From positions 1 through 55,405 of the forward strand of contig JAAYFS010000039.1 in assembly GCA_012728115.1 (NCBI GenBank): a DNA stretch of 55,405 nucleotides, read 5' to 3'. Under the pieces are notes generated by a model. It was not told the origin of the DNA and did not search any database. It saw nothing but the letters and a program-made list of their open reading frames with translations. A program made the translations under genes and the position numbers. Of this stretch, positions 23,626 to 36,198 are shown piece by piece (the first letter of the stretch is position 1; each line of letters begins with the position of its first letter). This stretch comes from Bacillota bacterium (GTDB taxonomy: Bacteria > Bacillota > Limnochordia > Darwinibacteriales > JAAYFS01).

Positions 23626-23631
23626 TTTCAT

Positions 23632-23750
23632 AGATATCTCCGAATACTGAAACGGTAGTGGGGGAACCAATTTTGGGGTGAATCTTTTTTCAAAAAGAAG
23701 GGCAACTTGGTCGTCCGAACCCGTCAGCTAACCTCGCAGGAGTGCACCAA
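23632..23750 (+). promoter_or_regulatory. c-di-AMP riboswitch (ydaO/yuaA class)
   Basis: The leader contains the conserved blocks of this class in order: TGAAAC, GTGGGGGAACC, TTTTGGGGTGAATC, AGGGCAACTTGGTCGTCCGAA, and CCCGTCAGCTAACCTCGCAGG. The class binds c-di-AMP and usually turns off potassium uptake and cell-wall genes when c-di-AMP is high. A terminator follows directly, and the downstream gene is a CPA2 cation antiporter, a common target of this class. Confidence 0.93.
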
Positions 23751-23790
23751 GCGTATGACAGATTATTGCGTGTCTGTTATGCGCTTTTTC
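23751..23790 (+). terminator. Riboswitch expression-platform terminator
   Basis: GCGTATGACAGA (23751-23762) pairs with TCTGTTATGCGC (23773-23784, with two G-U pairs), then CTTTTTC. It would stop transcription before the antiporter gene in the ligand-bound state. Confidence 0.85.
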
Positions 23791-23842: not shown

Positions 23843-25030
23843 GTGGAAACTTTGTTAAAAATCAGTATTGTACTAATCGCTGGATTAATTGGAGGTAGAG
23901 TTGCAGGGTTACTAAAACTCCCAAACGTAACAGGCTACTTGGTCGCTGGCGTATTAGTAGGCCCATTTTTTCTTCACGTGATCACTGCGCAAGACAGTGT
24001 ATCTTTAGCAATCATTAGTGACGTTGCACTCGCTATCATTGCTTTTAGTATCGGAAGTGAATTTCTCTTAAAAGAGATACGAAAACTAGGAAAGAAAATC
24101 TTTATAATTACAGTTGCTGAGGTTTTGGGAGCTGTCATCTTAGTCTTTGTTGTAATGTTCTTTATATTTAAGCAACCTTTTGCCTTCAGTATCGTTATCG
24201 CATCTATGTCAGCAGCTACTGCTCCTGCCGCTACTATGATGGTTATTAAACAGTACCAGGCTAACGGTCCGCTTACTAGAACAGTATTGCCTGTGGTGGC
24301 TTTGGATGATATTGTAGGAATTATGGTCTTTGGAATCGCAATGTCACTAGCTCAACTATCAATCGGAAATAATCAAACCTCGCTAACCACTATGATCAGC
24401 CAACCAATAATCGAAATTGTAGGATCGTGTTTGTTAGGTCTAGTGCTTGGATTCATCCTGACCTACTTTGTGAGAAAGGCAAGGGATAACGAAGATCTTA
24501 TGATGATGGCTCTCGCTGCAATAGGTCTAGCCACTGGACTAGCCAGTTGGATGGGACTATCTCCCTTACTAGCCTGTATTATGCTTGGAGCAACGATGGT
24601 GAATCTAACTCCTACCGCTCACCGTACTTTTAACGCACTAAACAACTTTGCTCCACCAGTATACCTACTCTTCTTTACCCTAGCGGGAGCGAGTTTAGAT
24701 CTGAATATCTTAAAACAAGTCGGTTTAATCGGTATTGCATATATCTTTGCTAGAGGGGCTGGCAAGATCTTTGGTGCTTGGACTGGAACTACAATGGTTA
24801 ACGCTGAACAACAAGTGGCCCAAAACCTGGGGTTGGCTCTTTTAGCTCAAGGTGGAGTATCGATCGGTTTATCGATTTTGGTAAGACAGCAATTACCACA
24901 ATATAGTGCGGCTATTACTACGATCATTATGTTTAGCGTTTTGATATACGAAATATCTGGACCTATTTTGGCCAAGATCGCTCTCCAACGAGCAGGAGAA
25001 ATAACACTTCGTGAAGTAAGTACTGAATAA
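23843..25030 (+). CDS. CPA2-family cation:proton antiporter
   Basis: A 395-residue membrane protein with about twelve helices of the Na+/H+ exchanger fold (KefB/GerN group): LKLPNVTGYLVAGVLVGPF at the N terminus, MSAATAPAATMMVI and ALDDIVGIMVFG in the middle (the DD region of ion binding). There is no C-terminal TrkA-N nucleotide domain; a separate P-II-like protein is encoded next, which may take over the regulatory role. It starts at GTG 23843 after GGAGGT. The upstream c-di-AMP riboswitch suggests K+ or Na+ homeostasis. Confidence 0.88.
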   Translation: METLLKISIVLIAGLIGGRVAGLLKLPNVTGYLVAGVLVGPFFLHVITAQDSVSLAIISDVALAIIAFSIGSEFLLKEIRKLGKKIFIITVAEVLGAVILVFVVMFFIFKQPFAFSIVIASMSAATAPAATMMVIKQYQANGPLTRTVLPVVALDDIVGIMVFGIAMSLAQLSIGNNQTSLTTMISQPIIEIVGSCLLGLVLGFILTYFVRKARDNEDLMMMALAAIGLATGLASWMGLSPLLACIMLGATMVNLTPTAHRTFNALNNFAPPVYLLFFTLAGASLDLNILKQVGLIGIAYIFARGAGKIFGAWTGTTMVNAEQQVAQNLGLALLAQGGVSIGLSILVRQQLPQYSAAITTIIMFSVLIYEISGPILAKIALQRAGEITLREVSTE

Positions 25031-30890: not shown

Positions 30891-30930
30891 ATTTAAGGCT
30901 TAAGGTGGAAAAACCTACCTTAAGCCTTAA
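30891..30930 (-). terminator. Hairpin at the end of the riboswitch operon
   Basis: TTAAGGCTTAAGGT and its complement form a 14-bp perfect stem around a 10-base loop, overlapping the stop codon of the PP2C gene. The T tract after it is poor, so it may protect the RNA 3' end as much as terminate. Confidence 0.6.
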
Positions 30931-32083
30931 GCACTAGAAAACTCATATCATCGCTTTGTTTATCACATTGCCTCATCACGGTATTTATTAAACCATCGCA
31001 GATTCCTTCTGCATCGTACTCCTGAAATTTTTTTAGGCTTTGTGATATTCCTTCGATCCCAAATTCCCGATTTTTATGATCCTTTATCTCTTTCAAACCA
31101 TCTGAGAAAACTATCAGAATATCTCCTTTGTTAAGATCCGCACTGTACGATTCGTATTCAGCATTTTCCTTTCCGCCAATAGCGATCCCTCTCCCTGTAA
31201 GTACGGAAACTCTGCTCTCATTTTTCCGCCAAATCAACGGAAGGTTATGCCCCGCATTAGCATAGATTAGTTTCCCTTGCTTTGGTTGATAAATTCCGAA
31301 AAACTGGGTAACAAACGAATCAAGCTGCGTTAGTTCTGAGATAAATTGATTATTTAACTCATAAAGAATTTTGCTTGGTAGATCAATATCTTTCGCAAGC
31401 ATCCGAAACATAGTTCTAGCCACAAGCATTACAAAAGCGCCTGGAACTCCCTTACCCATCGCATCGGCAACCGTTAGTCCAATAGAGCCACCTGGGTATA
31501 GAAGAATGTCCAAGTAATCGCCACCTAATTCATGAGCTGGAAGTACTCGATAGGCGATCGAAGAAGTTTGATCAACGTTTTGAATATTTGGCATTAGCTG
31601 TTGTTGAAAGAACCAGGTAGCTTGAAGCTCCCTACTTACTCGCTGCATATTTGGTGCATTTAAACCAACAACCAAGTCGATAAGTTTCGCCAATCGCTCG
31701 CCAAGATTCACACTAAGATCAGCAAATTCCATAGAAAAAGGATTGTCTGACCACAATATTAATGACGAATTGGTGTGCTTACCCATTAATGGTAGCGCAA
31801 AGTAATGCATTGGTGAATAGGTACCCGATAAAGTCTCTTTCGATTGTAAAATTTGTAAAGCTAAGCTTCGGTCATTTTCAGTTATTTCGCTAATATCCCT
31901 AGTATAGGAAAAAGCAATTCTAGAAGGAGCAGATTCTACCTGTGGATTATCTAGCCACAAGCTTACGGCAGCAAGTTTAAAAGTATTTATCAATTCGTTT
32001 CCAATACTAGTAAACGGCCCTTCACTTGATTCAAAACATCGTTCGTACAAAGTACTGAATAGTCGATCCAAGTGATTAATCAT
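30920..32083 (-). CDS. GAF-PP2C (RsbU/SpoIIE-type) serine phosphatase
   Basis: A 387-residue protein. A GAF-like N-terminal domain (about 1-150) precedes a short coiled linker and a SpoIIE/RsbU-type PP2C domain with the metal and active-site motifs ELGGDYLD, DAMGKGVPGAFVM, YANAGHNLPL, FSDGLKE and SDDMSFLVL. Such phosphatases dephosphorylate STAS-domain antagonists; the STAS gene lies in the same operon. The start is ATG 32083 after AGGAG; it overlaps the end of the HD-GYP gene by 8 bases (ATGATTAA). This is the last gene of the c-di-GMP-riboswitch operon. Confidence 0.9.
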   Translation of the reverse strand: MINHLDRLFSTLYERCFESSEGPFTSIGNELINTFKLAAVSLWLDNPQVESAPSRIAFSYTRDISEITENDRSLALQILQSKETLSGTYSPMHYFALPLMGKHTNSSLILWSDNPFSMEFADLSVNLGERLAKLIDLVVGLNAPNMQRVSRELQATWFFQQQLMPNIQNVDQTSSIAYRVLPAHELGGDYLDILLYPGGSIGLTVADAMGKGVPGAFVMLVARTMFRMLAKDIDLPSKILYELNNQFISELTQLDSFVTQFFGIYQPKQGKLIYANAGHNLPLIWRKNESRVSVLTGRGIAIGGKENAEYESYSADLNKGDILIVFSDGLKEIKDHKNREFGIEGISQSLKKFQEYDAEGICDGLINTVMRQCDKQSDDMSFLVLKA

Positions 32084-33104
32084 GACGTTCTCCTGTAATC
32101 GCCTCATCGGACTTACTGGTGATAAAATACGTTTTTTCTTTAACCAAATCTAAGTGATAGGTTGGTCTGACTTTTGTTCCAAGAATGTTTTGATCTATCC
32201 GAACAACAGGCCGTGTTGGGAACCCTTTATTAGCTTTCACCACTGTTCCTATTTCACCAGTATTCAATTTCACTTTCGTGCCAGCAGGATAAAAGGAAAC
32301 ACATTCTAAGAATTTCCGAACGAGTCTCGGTTCAAATAAAGTGCCGCTACCTGCCATCAAGTATTCAATCGCTTCTTCAATTGGATATCTATTATTTGCC
32401 GATAACTGATCAAAAGTATCGGTGATCCGAATAATACGAGCAAAATCTTGAATATGATCGTCCGCAAACCCTTTTGGAAAACCAGTCCCATCATAATTTT
32501 CATGATGTTGAATCACCGAAGCTATTATTTTAGAACTAACTCTCCCAGATTTTCGTAAAATTTGTGCACCAACCCGCGGATGTTCTTGATACTCCTCGTC
32601 GGAAACAAACAACAAACCTATATCATGAAGTAAAGCGGCAGTGGTTAAATCAGTCAACTCAAACTTATTGTACTGTAACTCAATACCTAAAATGGCAGCC
32701 AAGATCGACACGTTAAGAGTATGACTGAAAAGTTCTTCACTATAAGAACGAATATCCACCAAATTGATCATTACTTCATCTTTTAATAGCAGTTCATCGA
32801 TTACCGTTACTAAGGCCTCTTGGATTTTACCTATTTCTAACTTTGCTCCGTCCTTAACACTAGTCAATACTTCCCTAGTTGTATTTAAAGCTTGAATTCG
32901 CGTTTGGTCACTGATTACGTCTTCAACTGGTACATGATCATCTCGAGCAATGTACACAACATCGATTAAGTGTTTGTTTAAAAAGGTTATGTAGTTATCT
33001 GTCAATTCTACTCCTTGCCTTAGTAGTACTTGTCCCGTACTACCAAGAATCGTTCTCCCAAGGATCATGCCAGGCTTTAAATCTTGCACTCTAACTAAGA
33101 TCAT
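32076..33104 (-). CDS. HD-GYP-type phosphohydrolase, probable c-di-GMP phosphodiesterase
   Basis: A 342-residue protein. The N-terminal 100 residues begin VRVQDLKPGMILGRTI, a common leader of HD-GYP proteins. The HD domain has LLHDIG, later EHPRVGAQIL, and HHENYDGTGFPKG, which is the HD-GYP signature with GFP in place of GYP. It then has ITDTFDQL. This set of ligands fits c-di-GMP hydrolysis to pGpG or GMP. A small beta domain ends the protein. I place the start at ATG 33104, two bases after the previous stop; ATG 33113 is an alternative. Its place behind a c-di-GMP riboswitch suggests feedback. Confidence 0.87.
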   Translation of the reverse strand: MILVRVQDLKPGMILGRTILGSTGQVLLRQGVELTDNYITFLNKHLIDVVYIARDDHVPVEDVISDQTRIQALNTTREVLTSVKDGAKLEIGKIQEALVTVIDELLLKDEVMINLVDIRSYSEELFSHTLNVSILAAILGIELQYNKFELTDLTTAALLHDIGLLFVSDEEYQEHPRVGAQILRKSGRVSSKIIASVIQHHENYDGTGFPKGFADDHIQDFARIIRITDTFDQLSANNRYPIEEAIEYLMAGSGTLFEPRLVRKFLECVSFYPAGTKVKLNTGEIGTVVKANKGFPTRPVVRIDQNILGTKVRPTYHLDLVKEKTYFITSKSDEAITGERHD

Positions 33105-33105
33105 C

Positions 33106-33852
33106 TTAACCATCCCCTAAACGTTCAGCTAGTTTTTCTAAATCGGGATAAAGCACTAGCTTGGTTCCAGCTTTAGAGGTACAAACTAATACTTTACTCA
33201 TATACCTTATAATTATCGGGAAACCATAACCAATCGAGTTATCCTCGGTGGAATAACCTTTCAAAAATAATAAATAGGGTAGTTTGTTTAAATCCAAACC
33301 TGATCCTTTATCAATGATGTGAAACCGCGGATTATTACCTTCAATAATTAAATCTAACCTACCGCCAGGTGTATGTTTAATCACGTTCGTAACAGCTTCT
33401 GAGACACATAACAACACTCTATGACTTACCGACTTCGTCCACTTAGGCAGTTTGTCTTTTAGAAACTCATCCACTTCTTGGCGACAACGCCTAATATCCT
33501 CGACTTCGCGAATGGGTAACGACAACAAAGGTTGTTCCTGTCCAAACTTCAAATCATATTCGGTGGGGGTAAGTAAAGTTAGCGGATTTTGAGTTAAAGC
33601 CTCAATAACATTGTGATAAACCTGAAAGAGTCGCTCCCTCTCCTCATGCTCTTTTCTCAATTGATTTTGCGCACGAACAGCCTTATTACAAAACAGGCAA
33701 GTCAGAAACGAAGTTCCAAGCGTTCCAACAATTAATAGGCCTGTCCAAGTAAGACTAACTAATGTATTATCGATCAAGCCATCGATTAGAATAAACGCTA
33801 CTCCAGCAACAAAAAAACAGAAAACAAGCGGAACCATCATTGCCTTATTCAC
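33106..33852 (-). CDS. Membrane-anchored RsbW-like HATPase (anti-sigma or switch kinase)
   Basis: A 248-residue protein. Two membrane helices (about 5-27 and 33-56) are followed by a coiled segment (AQNQLRKEHEERERLF) and a GHKL ATPase domain with N box EAVTNVIKHT, G1 DKGSGLD and G2 IGYGFPIIIRY. There is no phospho-acceptor His domain, which sets it apart from sensor kinases and places it with RsbW/SpoIIAB-type serine kinases. Unlike those, it is tethered to the membrane. Its start (GTG 33852) overlaps the stop of the STAS gene by 4 bases. No sigma factor gene is adjacent, so the target is unknown. Confidence 0.85.
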   Translation of the reverse strand: MNKAMMVPLVFCFFVAGVAFILIDGLIDNTLVSLTWTGLLIVGTLGTSFLTCLFCNKAVRAQNQLRKEHEERERLFQVYHNVIEALTQNPLTLLTPTEYDLKFGQEQPLLSLPIREVEDIRRCRQEVDEFLKDKLPKWTKSVSHRVLLCVSEAVTNVIKHTPGGRLDLIIEGNNPRFHIIDKGSGLDLNKLPYLLFLKGYSTEDNSIGYGFPIIIRYMSKVLVCTSKAGTKLVLYPDLEKLAERLGDG

Positions 33853-34151
33853 TCTTCGATAATCTCCCTAAGACCGATTAATTCTAAGACCTCTTCTATT
33901 TCTCGATTATTGTTTTCCACTCTGAATTTAATTCCTCGTACTTTTAAAGCCCGATAAAGGCTAATAAGCTGCCCAATTCCTGAAGAATCAATAAACTGTA
34001 ATTTGCTTAAGCAAATGGTTATCCTTTCGATCATGTCTTTATCTAGTTCTTTGATAGCTGTGTTTAGGGTTTGGGTAGAAACCATATCTAACTCCCCAGC
34101 CAAAGCTATTGTTACACTCGGTGGTTGTCCTGAAACTTTAACGTAAAGCAT
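33849..34151 (-). CDS. STAS-domain anti-sigma factor antagonist
   Basis: A 100-residue single STAS domain. LAGELDMVSTQTLNTAI begins the fold, and LQFIDSSGIGQLISL carries the conserved serine that SpoIIAB/RsbW-type kinases phosphorylate (about residue 57). In the same operon lie the kinase-like HATPase (overlapping by 4 bases) and a PP2C phosphatase, so all three parts of a partner switch are present. It starts 10 bases after the FapA stop, with GGGGGATTACG upstream. Confidence 0.92.
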   Translation of the reverse strand: MLYVKVSGQPPSVTIALAGELDMVSTQTLNTAIKELDKDMIERITICLSKLQFIDSSGIGQLISLYRALKVRGIKFRVENNNREIEEVLELIGLREIIEE

Positions 34152-34161
34152 CGTAATCCCC

Positions 34162-36027
34162 CTAAGTTAGATTTCTTGTTTCCCATTCTCCATCTTTATA
34201 AGAAAACTTACACCACTGATGTTCTGTTTGAGTAATCATCCTTGCAGTGCCGACCTGGATCTGTACATCTGGGAAAAATAACTCCGCACCGATCCACCCG
34301 TCTTCAGCAACCATAAGTTTGGTCATAGCACTACCTCGTGCCCCAGCACGTTTCACTCTAATCGAATCTTTAGCACTATAGACTCCCATCCTGCACATAC
34401 CTTTTAGCTCAATTGTTTTCCCCGCGAACATTTCGCAGTTATATACTAATGGGCCAGTAACCGCGATACTGCCTGTGGCCTTGATTTTAGCACCATGGCA
34501 ATAGTTAACCTGAACATCGGCTAGATCATTTAAAAAATCGCTGAACGTCTCCCTCAATTCGGTTAGTACCCGCCTATTTTGAGCCACTTCATCTATCGAT
34601 TTTATTCTTAATGGACCTGCTCCTAAATACATACTAGCGGTAGATTCTAACAAGTCCACCATTCTCTTCGTTACTTGGTCATCTGGCTCTAGTTCTTCAA
34701 CCACATCTAAAAGATCTGTAAATAGTCTTGGAATATCTTTAAATCTGAGCTCTAAAATAAGTTTAAGTAAGTAACCATCACCTCTGACGTTAAGATCCTT
34801 TGTGGAAAAACTTGGATGGTTCTTAAGTTGGTGAAAAGCTCTTTCTAGTTTTTCAAGCTCGGAGCAAAGCTGTTTTAGTACGGCGACTAATTGCAAACAA
34901 ACCACTTGGTTACACCCTGCTGAAACCTCCCCACCAATTAGGTTCCTTTTTATTATCACGTCTGAACCCGCATTAATGGTAGCATGATAGACACTACCCA
35001 TTACTTCAACTGTCCCGCCTGCTTTTATCGTCATGGATTCCATTACATTACCATAAATCAATATGTCGCCTTTGAAACTCACGTTTCCTGTTCCTAAATC
35101 CACGTCCCCTGGGATTACTAACTGTGGATTAACTACCAACCTTCCGTGTTGGAAACTCGGACGACCAGCGATCTCAGCGACAGCAACTGTATCGTTATTA
35201 ACTAATTTAACACCTCGACCCACTAGAAATTTAGTTTTTCTGGGCGGCCGAGGTTGTACCAATTCACCAAAGACATCCACTCCAGGTACTCCTGGGACAG
35301 GAGGCTGCCAATATGCTAAAACATCTCCTGGTTCAACACAATTAATCACTTGCCTTTGCCAATAATCGATTCGATCGTTCTCATCAGTAATGATTGGGCG
35401 AGGTTTTAGGTCACAAACAATATCAATTTTGCCATCGACGGGTGGCGTGGCTGGTTTACCTTTAACAACAACCACTTCTGTGTCTATCCGCCCCTTACAG
35501 GCTCGATATATATCTTCATAAAAGATTTCCCCGTGAACATTCATTTCTTCTAGTTCTTCAACTACAAGTTCTGGGTCGATAACATCAGGGAAAATAGTCC
35601 TGCTTGGTTCAGCTTTAACAACTAGTTTTTGATTATAATCCGAATCGAGCAGCCTGTACTCCTGCCCCATGATAAATTGAGTTTTTAACACAATTTCCAT
35701 TTTATCAGAACTGACAACCAGTTGATAATCGCTGCTCGGTACTTTTACGATCGGCTTTACTTCTAAGTTTTCAATATCCTCAACAACAAAAGGTCTAAGC
35801 ATCCTTTGTTGATAATAGGTTACTTCGACTGTGTCTGTAGGCACAAGTACAGGCCAAGGACCCTTAATCCCTGGCCTTTTCAACGATATTTTACCATTAA
35901 CAATCGCTAATTTACCCGCTTCATCCTTTTCTGCTCGTTCTAATAATTGTGTTGAAGTATGATAGCTATCATCCGATTCTTCTGACCATGTAGCAATTAT
36001 TTTGTCAATTTCCTTTGCGTTAAACAT
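34162..36027 (-). CDS. FapA/DUF342 family polymer-forming protein
   Basis: A 621-residue protein of the DUF342 (FapA) family. An N-terminal region of about 120 residues and a middle domain precede the FapA core: DVLAYWQPPVPGVPGVDVFGE, then a beta-helix-like stretch (GDVDLGTGNVSFKGDILIYGNV, GTVEVMGSVYHATINAGSDV). A coiled region (about 430-520) interrupts it, and more beta-helix follows (KATGSIAVTGPLVYNCEMFAGK). FapA relatives act in flagellar assembly or cell-surface organisation in some bacteria. ATG 36027 follows a G-rich ribosome site. A longer frame to 36105 runs into the riboswitch terminator and is not real. It is the first gene of the c-di-GMP-controlled operon. Confidence 0.9.
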   Translation of the reverse strand: MFNAKEIDKIIATWSEESDDSYHTSTQLLERAEKDEAGKLAIVNGKISLKRPGIKGPWPVLVPTDTVEVTYYQQRMLRPFVVEDIENLEVKPIVKVPSSDYQLVVSSDKMEIVLKTQFIMGQEYRLLDSDYNQKLVVKAEPSRTIFPDVIDPELVVEELEEMNVHGEIFYEDIYRACKGRIDTEVVVVKGKPATPPVDGKIDIVCDLKPRPIITDENDRIDYWQRQVINCVEPGDVLAYWQPPVPGVPGVDVFGELVQPRPPRKTKFLVGRGVKLVNNDTVAVAEIAGRPSFQHGRLVVNPQLVIPGDVDLGTGNVSFKGDILIYGNVMESMTIKAGGTVEVMGSVYHATINAGSDVIIKRNLIGGEVSAGCNQVVCLQLVAVLKQLCSELEKLERAFHQLKNHPSFSTKDLNVRGDGYLLKLILELRFKDIPRLFTDLLDVVEELEPDDQVTKRMVDLLESTASMYLGAGPLRIKSIDEVAQNRRVLTELRETFSDFLNDLADVQVNYCHGAKIKATGSIAVTGPLVYNCEMFAGKTIELKGMCRMGVYSAKDSIRVKRAGARGSAMTKLMVAEDGWIGAELFFPDVQIQVGTARMITQTEHQWCKFSYKDGEWETRNLT

Positions 36028-36046
36028 TACCCGACCCCCTAAAAAC

Positions 36047-36077
36047 AAAAAAACTTTCCCCAGACAGTTGTGGAAAG
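36047..36077 (-). terminator. Riboswitch terminator ahead of fapA
   Basis: CTTTCC/GGAAAG stem (36077-36072 with 36059-36054) around a 12-base loop, then seven T residues on the minus strand, 20 bases before the ATG. Confidence 0.82.
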
Positions 36078-36080
36078 AAT

Positions 36081-36165
36081 CTTTCGGTAACTGGCTGGCA
36101 TACACTTTGAGTGTTTAGCCCCTATAGCTTTGCGTCCCAAGATTTCTCTTGGTTTGCCAAATATA
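36081..36165 (-). promoter_or_regulatory. c-di-GMP-I (GEMM-I) riboswitch
   Basis: Read on the minus strand, it has the diagnostic blocks in order: GGCAAACC, an AAGA-GAAA-TCTT hairpin with GNRA loop, GGGACGCAAAGC, TATAGGGGCTAAAC, ATGCCAGCCAGTTACCG. These form P2 with its tetraloop, the receptor helix P3 and the ligand pocket of the class. A terminator follows. It controls the fapA-STAS-HATPase-HD-GYP-PP2C operon. Whether c-di-GMP turns expression on or off cannot be decided by eye. Confidence 0.95.
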
Positions 36166-36169
36166 AAAT

Positions 36170-36198
36170 TGTATATACTTTTAGTGATACCTTATCAA
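36170..36198 (-). promoter_or_regulatory. Promoter of the c-di-GMP riboswitch operon
   Basis: TTGATA (36198-36193), 17 bases, TATACA (36175-36170) on the minus strand. Transcription would start near 36163, right at the 5' end of the riboswitch. Confidence 0.75.

Follow-up and report, generated by a model that had tools for sequence, protein, structure and literature searches.

A 55,405-nucleotide stretch of DNA from a spore-forming, flagellated member of the Bacillota (class Limnochordia; contig JAAYFS010000039.1 of assembly GCA_012728115.1), here called the window, carries on its minus strand an operon in which a cyclic di-GMP (c-di-GMP)-I riboswitch and an intrinsic terminator are followed, unbroken, by genes for a FapA/DUF342 protein, a STAS protein, an RsbW/SpoIIAB-like HATPase, an HD-GYP-type protein, and a SpoIIE-type PP2C phosphatase. 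The explanation that we modestly favor is a c-di-GMP OFF riboswitch governing a partner switch directed at the FapA protein (FapA2 below), with the HD-GYP protein as an input. The broader proposal, to which we give slightly less than an even chance, is that this is an undescribed, phylum-widespread pathway in which, without any sigma factor, the riboswitch gates production of a partner switch and the direct target of its STAS protein is the FapA beta-solenoid scaffold. The parts (the GEMM-I riboswitch, the partner switch, and FapA) are known, whereas their recurrent combination appears to be undescribed; the system was not found in the literature on FapA/DUF342 with partner switches, STAS proteins, or c-di-GMP riboswitches, in searches that mostly did not cover subscription journals.

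The strongest new evidence that these genes constitute a functional unit is their linkage across the phylum in shuffled orders. Searching a sample of 398 genomes with a profile of the HATPase shows relatives in 44 of them, and at least 46 of 66 HATPase places (the window's own excluded), distributed over at least 36 of 43 genomes, have a fapA gene no more than 8 kb away; the count is a lower bound, as L167 is entered as unlinked though a fapA gene is present. By our own estimate, chance would give about 1% linkage at 1 to 3 fapA genes per ∼3-Mb genome. Among 34 HATPase loci that were read, FapA is present in 30 and adjoins STAS in 24 of the 27 loci holding both, with gene orders that include PP2C-HATPase-FapA-STAS (L161), HATPase-HD-PP2C-FapA-STAS (L170), HATPase-STAS-PP2C-STAS-FapA (L167, L205, L207, and L208), and others elsewhere. 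In L158, L160, L162, L168, L169, and L171, a single fusion protein carries both an HD and a HATPase domain. A c-di-GMP-I or c-di-GMP-I-GGC riboswitch is present in 17 of the 30 FapA loci, a fraction that applies to this set, which was picked from HATPase matches and is not a set of independent loci. The recurrence of the same partners in shuffled orders argues for a single functional unit, whose output is likely to be FapA.

A few of the phylum loci depart from this composition. L168 (7564-6143, minus strand) has a c-di-GMP-I riboswitch (90.6 bits) before an HD-GYP and HATPase fusion with no fapA nearby, as a minimal relative of this system, and L159 (genome G200) and L163 (G083) have PP2C-HATPase-STAS genes without fapA beside a gene for a protein of ∼1,450 amino acids, and are possibly sister switches with another output.

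Within the class, the riboswitch is tied to a particular fapA lineage. The genome of the window has two fapA genes, of which the second (contig G000:C15) adjoins cheR and cheB and the operon copy falls in a clade of its own, fapA2, separated from canonical FapA with support of 100/100 in a tree built without two out-of-frame canonical sequences. Both of its domains score above the cut-off (PF03961/PF20250; FapA_N and beta-solenoid, 101.0 and 102.1 bits). The riboswitch heads 19 of the 21 fapA2 loci whose upstream DNA can be read in the order and in G051, from another order of the class (L036 and L053, cut by contig ends, are outside this count), and no c-di-GMP-I site lies upstream of the canonical fapA in the genome. 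Ten further loci have the gene order fapA2-STAS-HATPase-HD-GYP-PP2C in full or as far as their contig reaches (L036, L037, L038, in which the gene caller missed the STAS frame, L039, L041, L045, L047, L053, L056, and L113), and one of the relatives that keep it belongs to another order of the class. Other loci have fapA2 and the riboswitch without the four switch genes (L040, L042, L046, L048, L049, L050, and L051), and in the basal clade of G008 to G010 and G012 only fapA2 is present, headed by the riboswitch in G009, G010, and G012. Profile searches for the HATPase and PP2C give strong matches only in genomes with the fapA2 module or on operon contigs that are cut short. The four downstream genes are gained or lost as one block and are seen, within the class, behind fapA2 only, and their presence on the FapA tree calls for at least five changes. 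The riboswitch-fapA2 pair looks like the core, to which the partner switch is attached as a module.

FapA/DUF342 proteins such as Vibrio FapA and Borrelia bb0267 share the FapA_N and FapA beta-solenoid domains, but have been placed elsewhere functionally. Vibrio FapA is reported to bind dephosphorylated EIIA-Glc and to be recruited by HubP, with a link to flagella (PMC6877527 and references therein), and fapA is also described as clustering with sigma-28 and flagellar genes (PMC11607428); the papers found do not connect it with a partner switch, and the fapA2 clade is separate from the CheB/CheR-linked copy. A Foldseek search of the FapA model against the PDB gives no significant match, only weak ones to MinC. 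We also note that in L052 (G016) and L054 (G015) fapA2 has stops or broken frames behind an intact riboswitch, reflecting either decay or assembly error. Short genes for PAS-methyl-accepting chemotaxis proteins (PAS-MCP) are found near several of these loci: after the PP2C gene in L037 (9088-9894), in L038 as judged by position and size, and, resembling that of L037, directly after fapA2 in L046 (8169-8975), a locus that lacks the four switch genes. By eye, there is also a PAS/MCP-like open reading frame in the window (39801-39010), beyond the flagellin gene on the upstream side of the operon.

The leader is predicted from its sequence and folding to switch the operon off in response to c-di-GMP, a sign that the preliminary description did not give. 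The aptamer matches RF01051 over model positions 1 to 87 of 87 at 80.1 bits (cut-off, 35; E value, 3.3e-14) and is one of three sites above cut-off genome-wide. The long loop of the terminator caused a pattern scan to miss it, but folding shows it clearly; its stem was set by hand, the automatic finder having placed the stem wrongly. An antiterminator is formed when the CAGTT strand that closes the aptamer pairs with AACTG in the terminator loop (Table 1), and, as aptamer bases 75 to 79 are used in both forced states of the leader (aptamer plus terminator, -30.2 kcal/mol; antiterminator, -30.3 kcal/mol), these are mutually exclusive: by computed folding, terminator and aptamer can coexist, and antiterminator and aptamer cannot. 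Across 17 fapA2 leaders, including that of the window, the closing strand is complementary to the terminator loop more often than to shuffled loops (Fisher-combined p ∼2e-8, for leaders that are related), and 16 phylum-level leaders show similar complementarity (p ∼2e-9, likewise for leaders that are not independent), which is clearest in L162, L166, L202, L205, L206, L208, and L213 and absent in, for example, L198, L207, and L212. The prediction of an OFF switch follows from this arrangement, which is also that of the Clostridioides difficile Cd1 OFF switch upstream of flagellar genes, in which aptamer and terminator coexist and an antiterminator competes (Landgraf et al.; PMC9262584). The two have the same aptamer family and the same layout of aptamer, terminator, and antiterminator; they differ in that the operon here encodes a FapA paralogue and a partner switch and is not the main flagellar operon, and in that the ligand response here is a predicted one.

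The five genes are closely packed, with junctions from fapA to PP2C of +10, -4, +1, and -8 bases, and the scan shows no terminator-like site within the operon on its own strand. This agrees with a preliminary description of the same DNA, which had proposed a GEMM-I riboswitch with terminator heading five genes with gaps of at most 10 bases or overlaps, and had named a lack of conserved gene order in relatives and internal terminators as what would count against the proposal; the order is kept in relatives, and the riboswitch with it. The sigma-A promoter of that description is plausible only: TTGATA-N17-TATACA is readable, but the promoter scan did not pick it, its best match being TGAACA-17-TATAAT at 36326-36298, and promoter-like matches are no more common in the real sequence than in shuffles. 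Similarly, the phosphatase described as GAF-PP2C has its SpoIIE/PP2C domain, but no GAF domain was detected in the Pfam search of the protein.

On residue evidence, the partner switch of the preliminary description is complete, with phosphorylation site, kinase, and phosphatase residues intact. Scored over 9 to 10 orthologues, the STAS phosphorylation site Ser56 (IDS[S/T]G), the HATPase N-box and G-box residues E152, N156, D181, G183, and G185, and the PP2C metal-binding aspartates D189, D207, D328, and D378/D379 are invariant. The system thus resembles SpoIIAA/SpoIIAB/SpoIIE and RsbV/W/U in its STAS phosphoserine motif, HATPase kinase, SpoIIE-type PP2C, and conserved catalytic residues, but differs from them in being headed by a riboswitch and in having FapA and HD-GYP genes in place of a sigma factor gene. 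The membrane anchoring ascribed to the HATPase is seen in the window copy as two hydrophobic N-terminal stretches that are absent in several orthologues, and membrane tethering was rejected as a defining trait because the anchor is not conserved there.

FapA is the most economical target for the switch because it is the constant company of these genes and is adjacent to STAS. The preliminary description had offered a FapA polymer or an unknown sigma factor as the target, and the phylum linkage favors the former. Beyond the co-occurrence itself, we infer the following mechanism. At high c-di-GMP, the aptamer would keep its closing strand, the terminator would form, and the operon would be silent; at low c-di-GMP, pairing of the closing strand with the loop of the terminator would allow the operon to be transcribed. 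Its products would be a FapA beta-solenoid protein dedicated to this system, a complete switch of STAS protein, serine kinase (HATPase), and PP2C phosphatase, and the HD-GYP protein, which would add another input linked to c-di-GMP. Unphosphorylated STAS would most likely bind FapA2, by itself or as part of a complex, and set its activity instead of freeing a sigma factor; we regard direct contact between STAS and FapA as evenly balanced, and the system may have a role in the choice between motile and sessile states. This step is modeled after SiaC of the Pseudomonas aeruginosa SiaABCD system, which acts on the diguanylate cyclase SiaD and provides a non-sigma output (PMC8457831); SypA is a further precedent for a non-sigma output, with its target unknown (PMC8256260).

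FapA/DUF342 proteins are common but lack an established biochemical role, and for many of the STAS/HATPase/PP2C sets of spore formers and their relatives there is no known output. The recurrent riboswitch-headed linkage makes for a testable proposal for both, in which c-di-GMP governs the timing of production of a phospho-switch directed at FapA. If true, a scaffold-type protein would join enzymes and sigma factors among the targets of partner switching, and a scaffold or polymer would have a phospho-switch of its own with no sigma factor involved.

Several observations weigh against a FapA2-directed switch under an OFF riboswitch. The folding energies of the leader include neither ligand nor tertiary contacts, and the free full-length fold already favors the terminator in most homologous leaders. 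The riboswitch is absent from two fapA2 loci, both in G008, and several lineages retain fapA2 but not the four switch genes, such that FapA2 does not need them.

The switch could also act in trans as an orphan anti-sigma system, which we consider rather unlikely. Here, a sigma factor whose gene lies elsewhere, such as FliA, sigma-F, or another, would be held by the HATPase and set free by STAS and PP2C, with FapA2 merely coexpressed. The STAS protein does score as an anti-sigma factor antagonist (TIGR00377), the three proteins resemble SpoIIAB, SpoIIAA, and SpoIIE, and FliA, sigma-F, and extracytoplasmic function (ECF)-type factors are present. The sigma factors of the genome, which include the sporulation set, are SigA, SigE, SigF, SigG, SigH, SigK, SigI, one factor of the FliA/WhiG type, two that are SigH-like, and two of the ECF type. 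The sigma factor output of the preliminary description is weakened, however: there is no SigB-type factor in the genome and no sigma factor gene in the operon, the latter as noted in the preliminary description, and sigma-F has its own STAS partner, the only other STAS-domain match in the genome adjoining sigF. The constant companion in the phylum loci is FapA and not a sigma factor gene, although sigma genes were not systematically searched there.

It is improbable that the switch instead resembles SiaABCD more fully, with STAS controlling the HD-GYP protein, and hence the c-di-GMP level, and FapA2 acting as a passenger or localizer, although the SiaA/B/C switch does control the cyclase SiaD (PMC8457831). 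Both systems tie partner-switch logic to c-di-GMP and have a non-sigma output, but that output is a diguanylate cyclase in P. aeruginosa, whereas here there are an HD-GYP protein of uncertain activity and FapA with a riboswitch ahead, in a different operon, and the Pfam search finds no GGDEF (diguanylate cyclase) gene in it. An active HD-GYP protein together with an OFF riboswitch would make a double-negative, bistable loop. The HD-GYP gene is present in every complete module of the class, HD-HATPase fusions occur in several phylum loci, and the window copy retains the Glu, the His/HD/His/HH set, HHE, and the last Asp. We note, however, that it lacks the Lys of HDxGK, as does most of the class orthologue group, and that the orthologues within the class lack an active-site loop of ∼14 residues that is seen in two HD-GYP proteins of canonical type from the window's genome. 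The last metal-binding Asp is replaced by Asn in L036, L037, L038, L041, L053, and L113, and in other phylum families the loop is retained by full-length orthologues, which often have Ala at this position; the remaining HD-GYP domains at those loci have a canonical appearance. Moreover, HD is undetected in several phylum loci that have FapA, STAS, HATPase, and PP2C. The structural model (mean predicted local distance difference test score, 71; moderate) matches HD-GYP structures in Foldseek, which confirms the family only. Judged by these residues, sensing of c-di-GMP is as likely as its cleavage. The feedback loop of the preliminary description is therefore weakened, and a simple model in which the enzyme closes the loop was rejected on the lost active-site features.

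A further alternative concerns the sign and ligand of the leader. The operon aptamer keeps a G before CAAACC, which we take to be G20 in Vc2 numbering. The G20A change enables GEMM-I RNAs to bind cyclic GMP-AMP (cGAMP) (PMC6274999), and GEMM-I relatives include both cGAMP-binding variants and ON switches (PMC6274999 and PMC9262584). Ligand and sign are not fixed by folding alone, but the full-length RF01051 match, the retained G, and an aptamer compatible with the terminator and not with the antiterminator make an ON switch, or a response to another cyclic dinucleotide such as 3′,3′-cGAMP, quite improbable. Ordinary co-location without a common function is scarcely credible: same-strand neighbors do arise by chance and relatives share ancestry, but the same partners recur in shuffled orders in many families of the phylum, over half of the FapA loci with a riboswitch.

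Table 1. Features of the fapA2 operon and its leader (window coordinates)
Feature	Position	Strand	Evidence
Possible sigma-A promoter TTGATA-N17-TATACA, tentative	36170..36198	-	Read from sequence; not picked by scan
c-di-GMP-I (GEMM-I) aptamer, RF01051	36083..36168	-	cmscan 80.1 bits, full length; 19/21 fapA2 loci
Aptamer closing-helix 3′ strand CAGTT, common to aptamer and antiterminator	36089..36093	-	Leader bases 75-79 in both structures
AACTG in terminator loop, antiterminator partner strand	36065..36069	-	Folding; equivalent complementarity in most homologous leaders
Intrinsic terminator CTTTCC...GGAAAG, then T run	36041..36077	-	Folding
fapA2, FapA/DUF342 protein of own clade	34162..36027	-	Pfam FapA and FapA_N; clade 100/100 versus canonical FapA
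STAS, anti-sigma-antagonist type, putative phosphorylation site Ser56 in IDSSG	33849..34151	-	Pfam STAS; NCBIfam ant_ant_sig (TIGR00377)
RsbW/SpoIIAB-like HATPase, hydrophobic N-terminal segment	33106..33852	-	Pfam HATPase_c/_c_2
HD-GYP-type protein, active-site loop shortened	32076..33104	-	Pfam HD_5/HD; residue comparison; Foldseek
SpoIIE-type PP2C phosphatase	30920..32083	-	Pfam SpoIIE, 148 bits
14-bp inverted repeat at operon end, possible transcript end, no T run	30893..30930	-	Read from sequence

Other riboswitches are present in the genome. An aptamer of the c-di-GMP-I type (L058, contig G000:C49; 79.4 bits, 8866-8781) precedes an aldehyde dehydrogenase gene (8559-7069, minus strand), an unusual target, and the window itself has a c-di-AMP (ydaO) riboswitch (97.6 bits, 23628-23758, plus strand) upstream of a gene at 23843-25030. 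At L059 (G000:C36, 5645-5875), tandem c-di-GMP-I-type aptamers, one below cut-off and one of the c-di-GMP-I-GGC type, lie directly before a curlin-repeat gene, with a second large curlin-repeat gene just ahead; this suggests c-di-GMP control of a curli-like fiber in a spore former.

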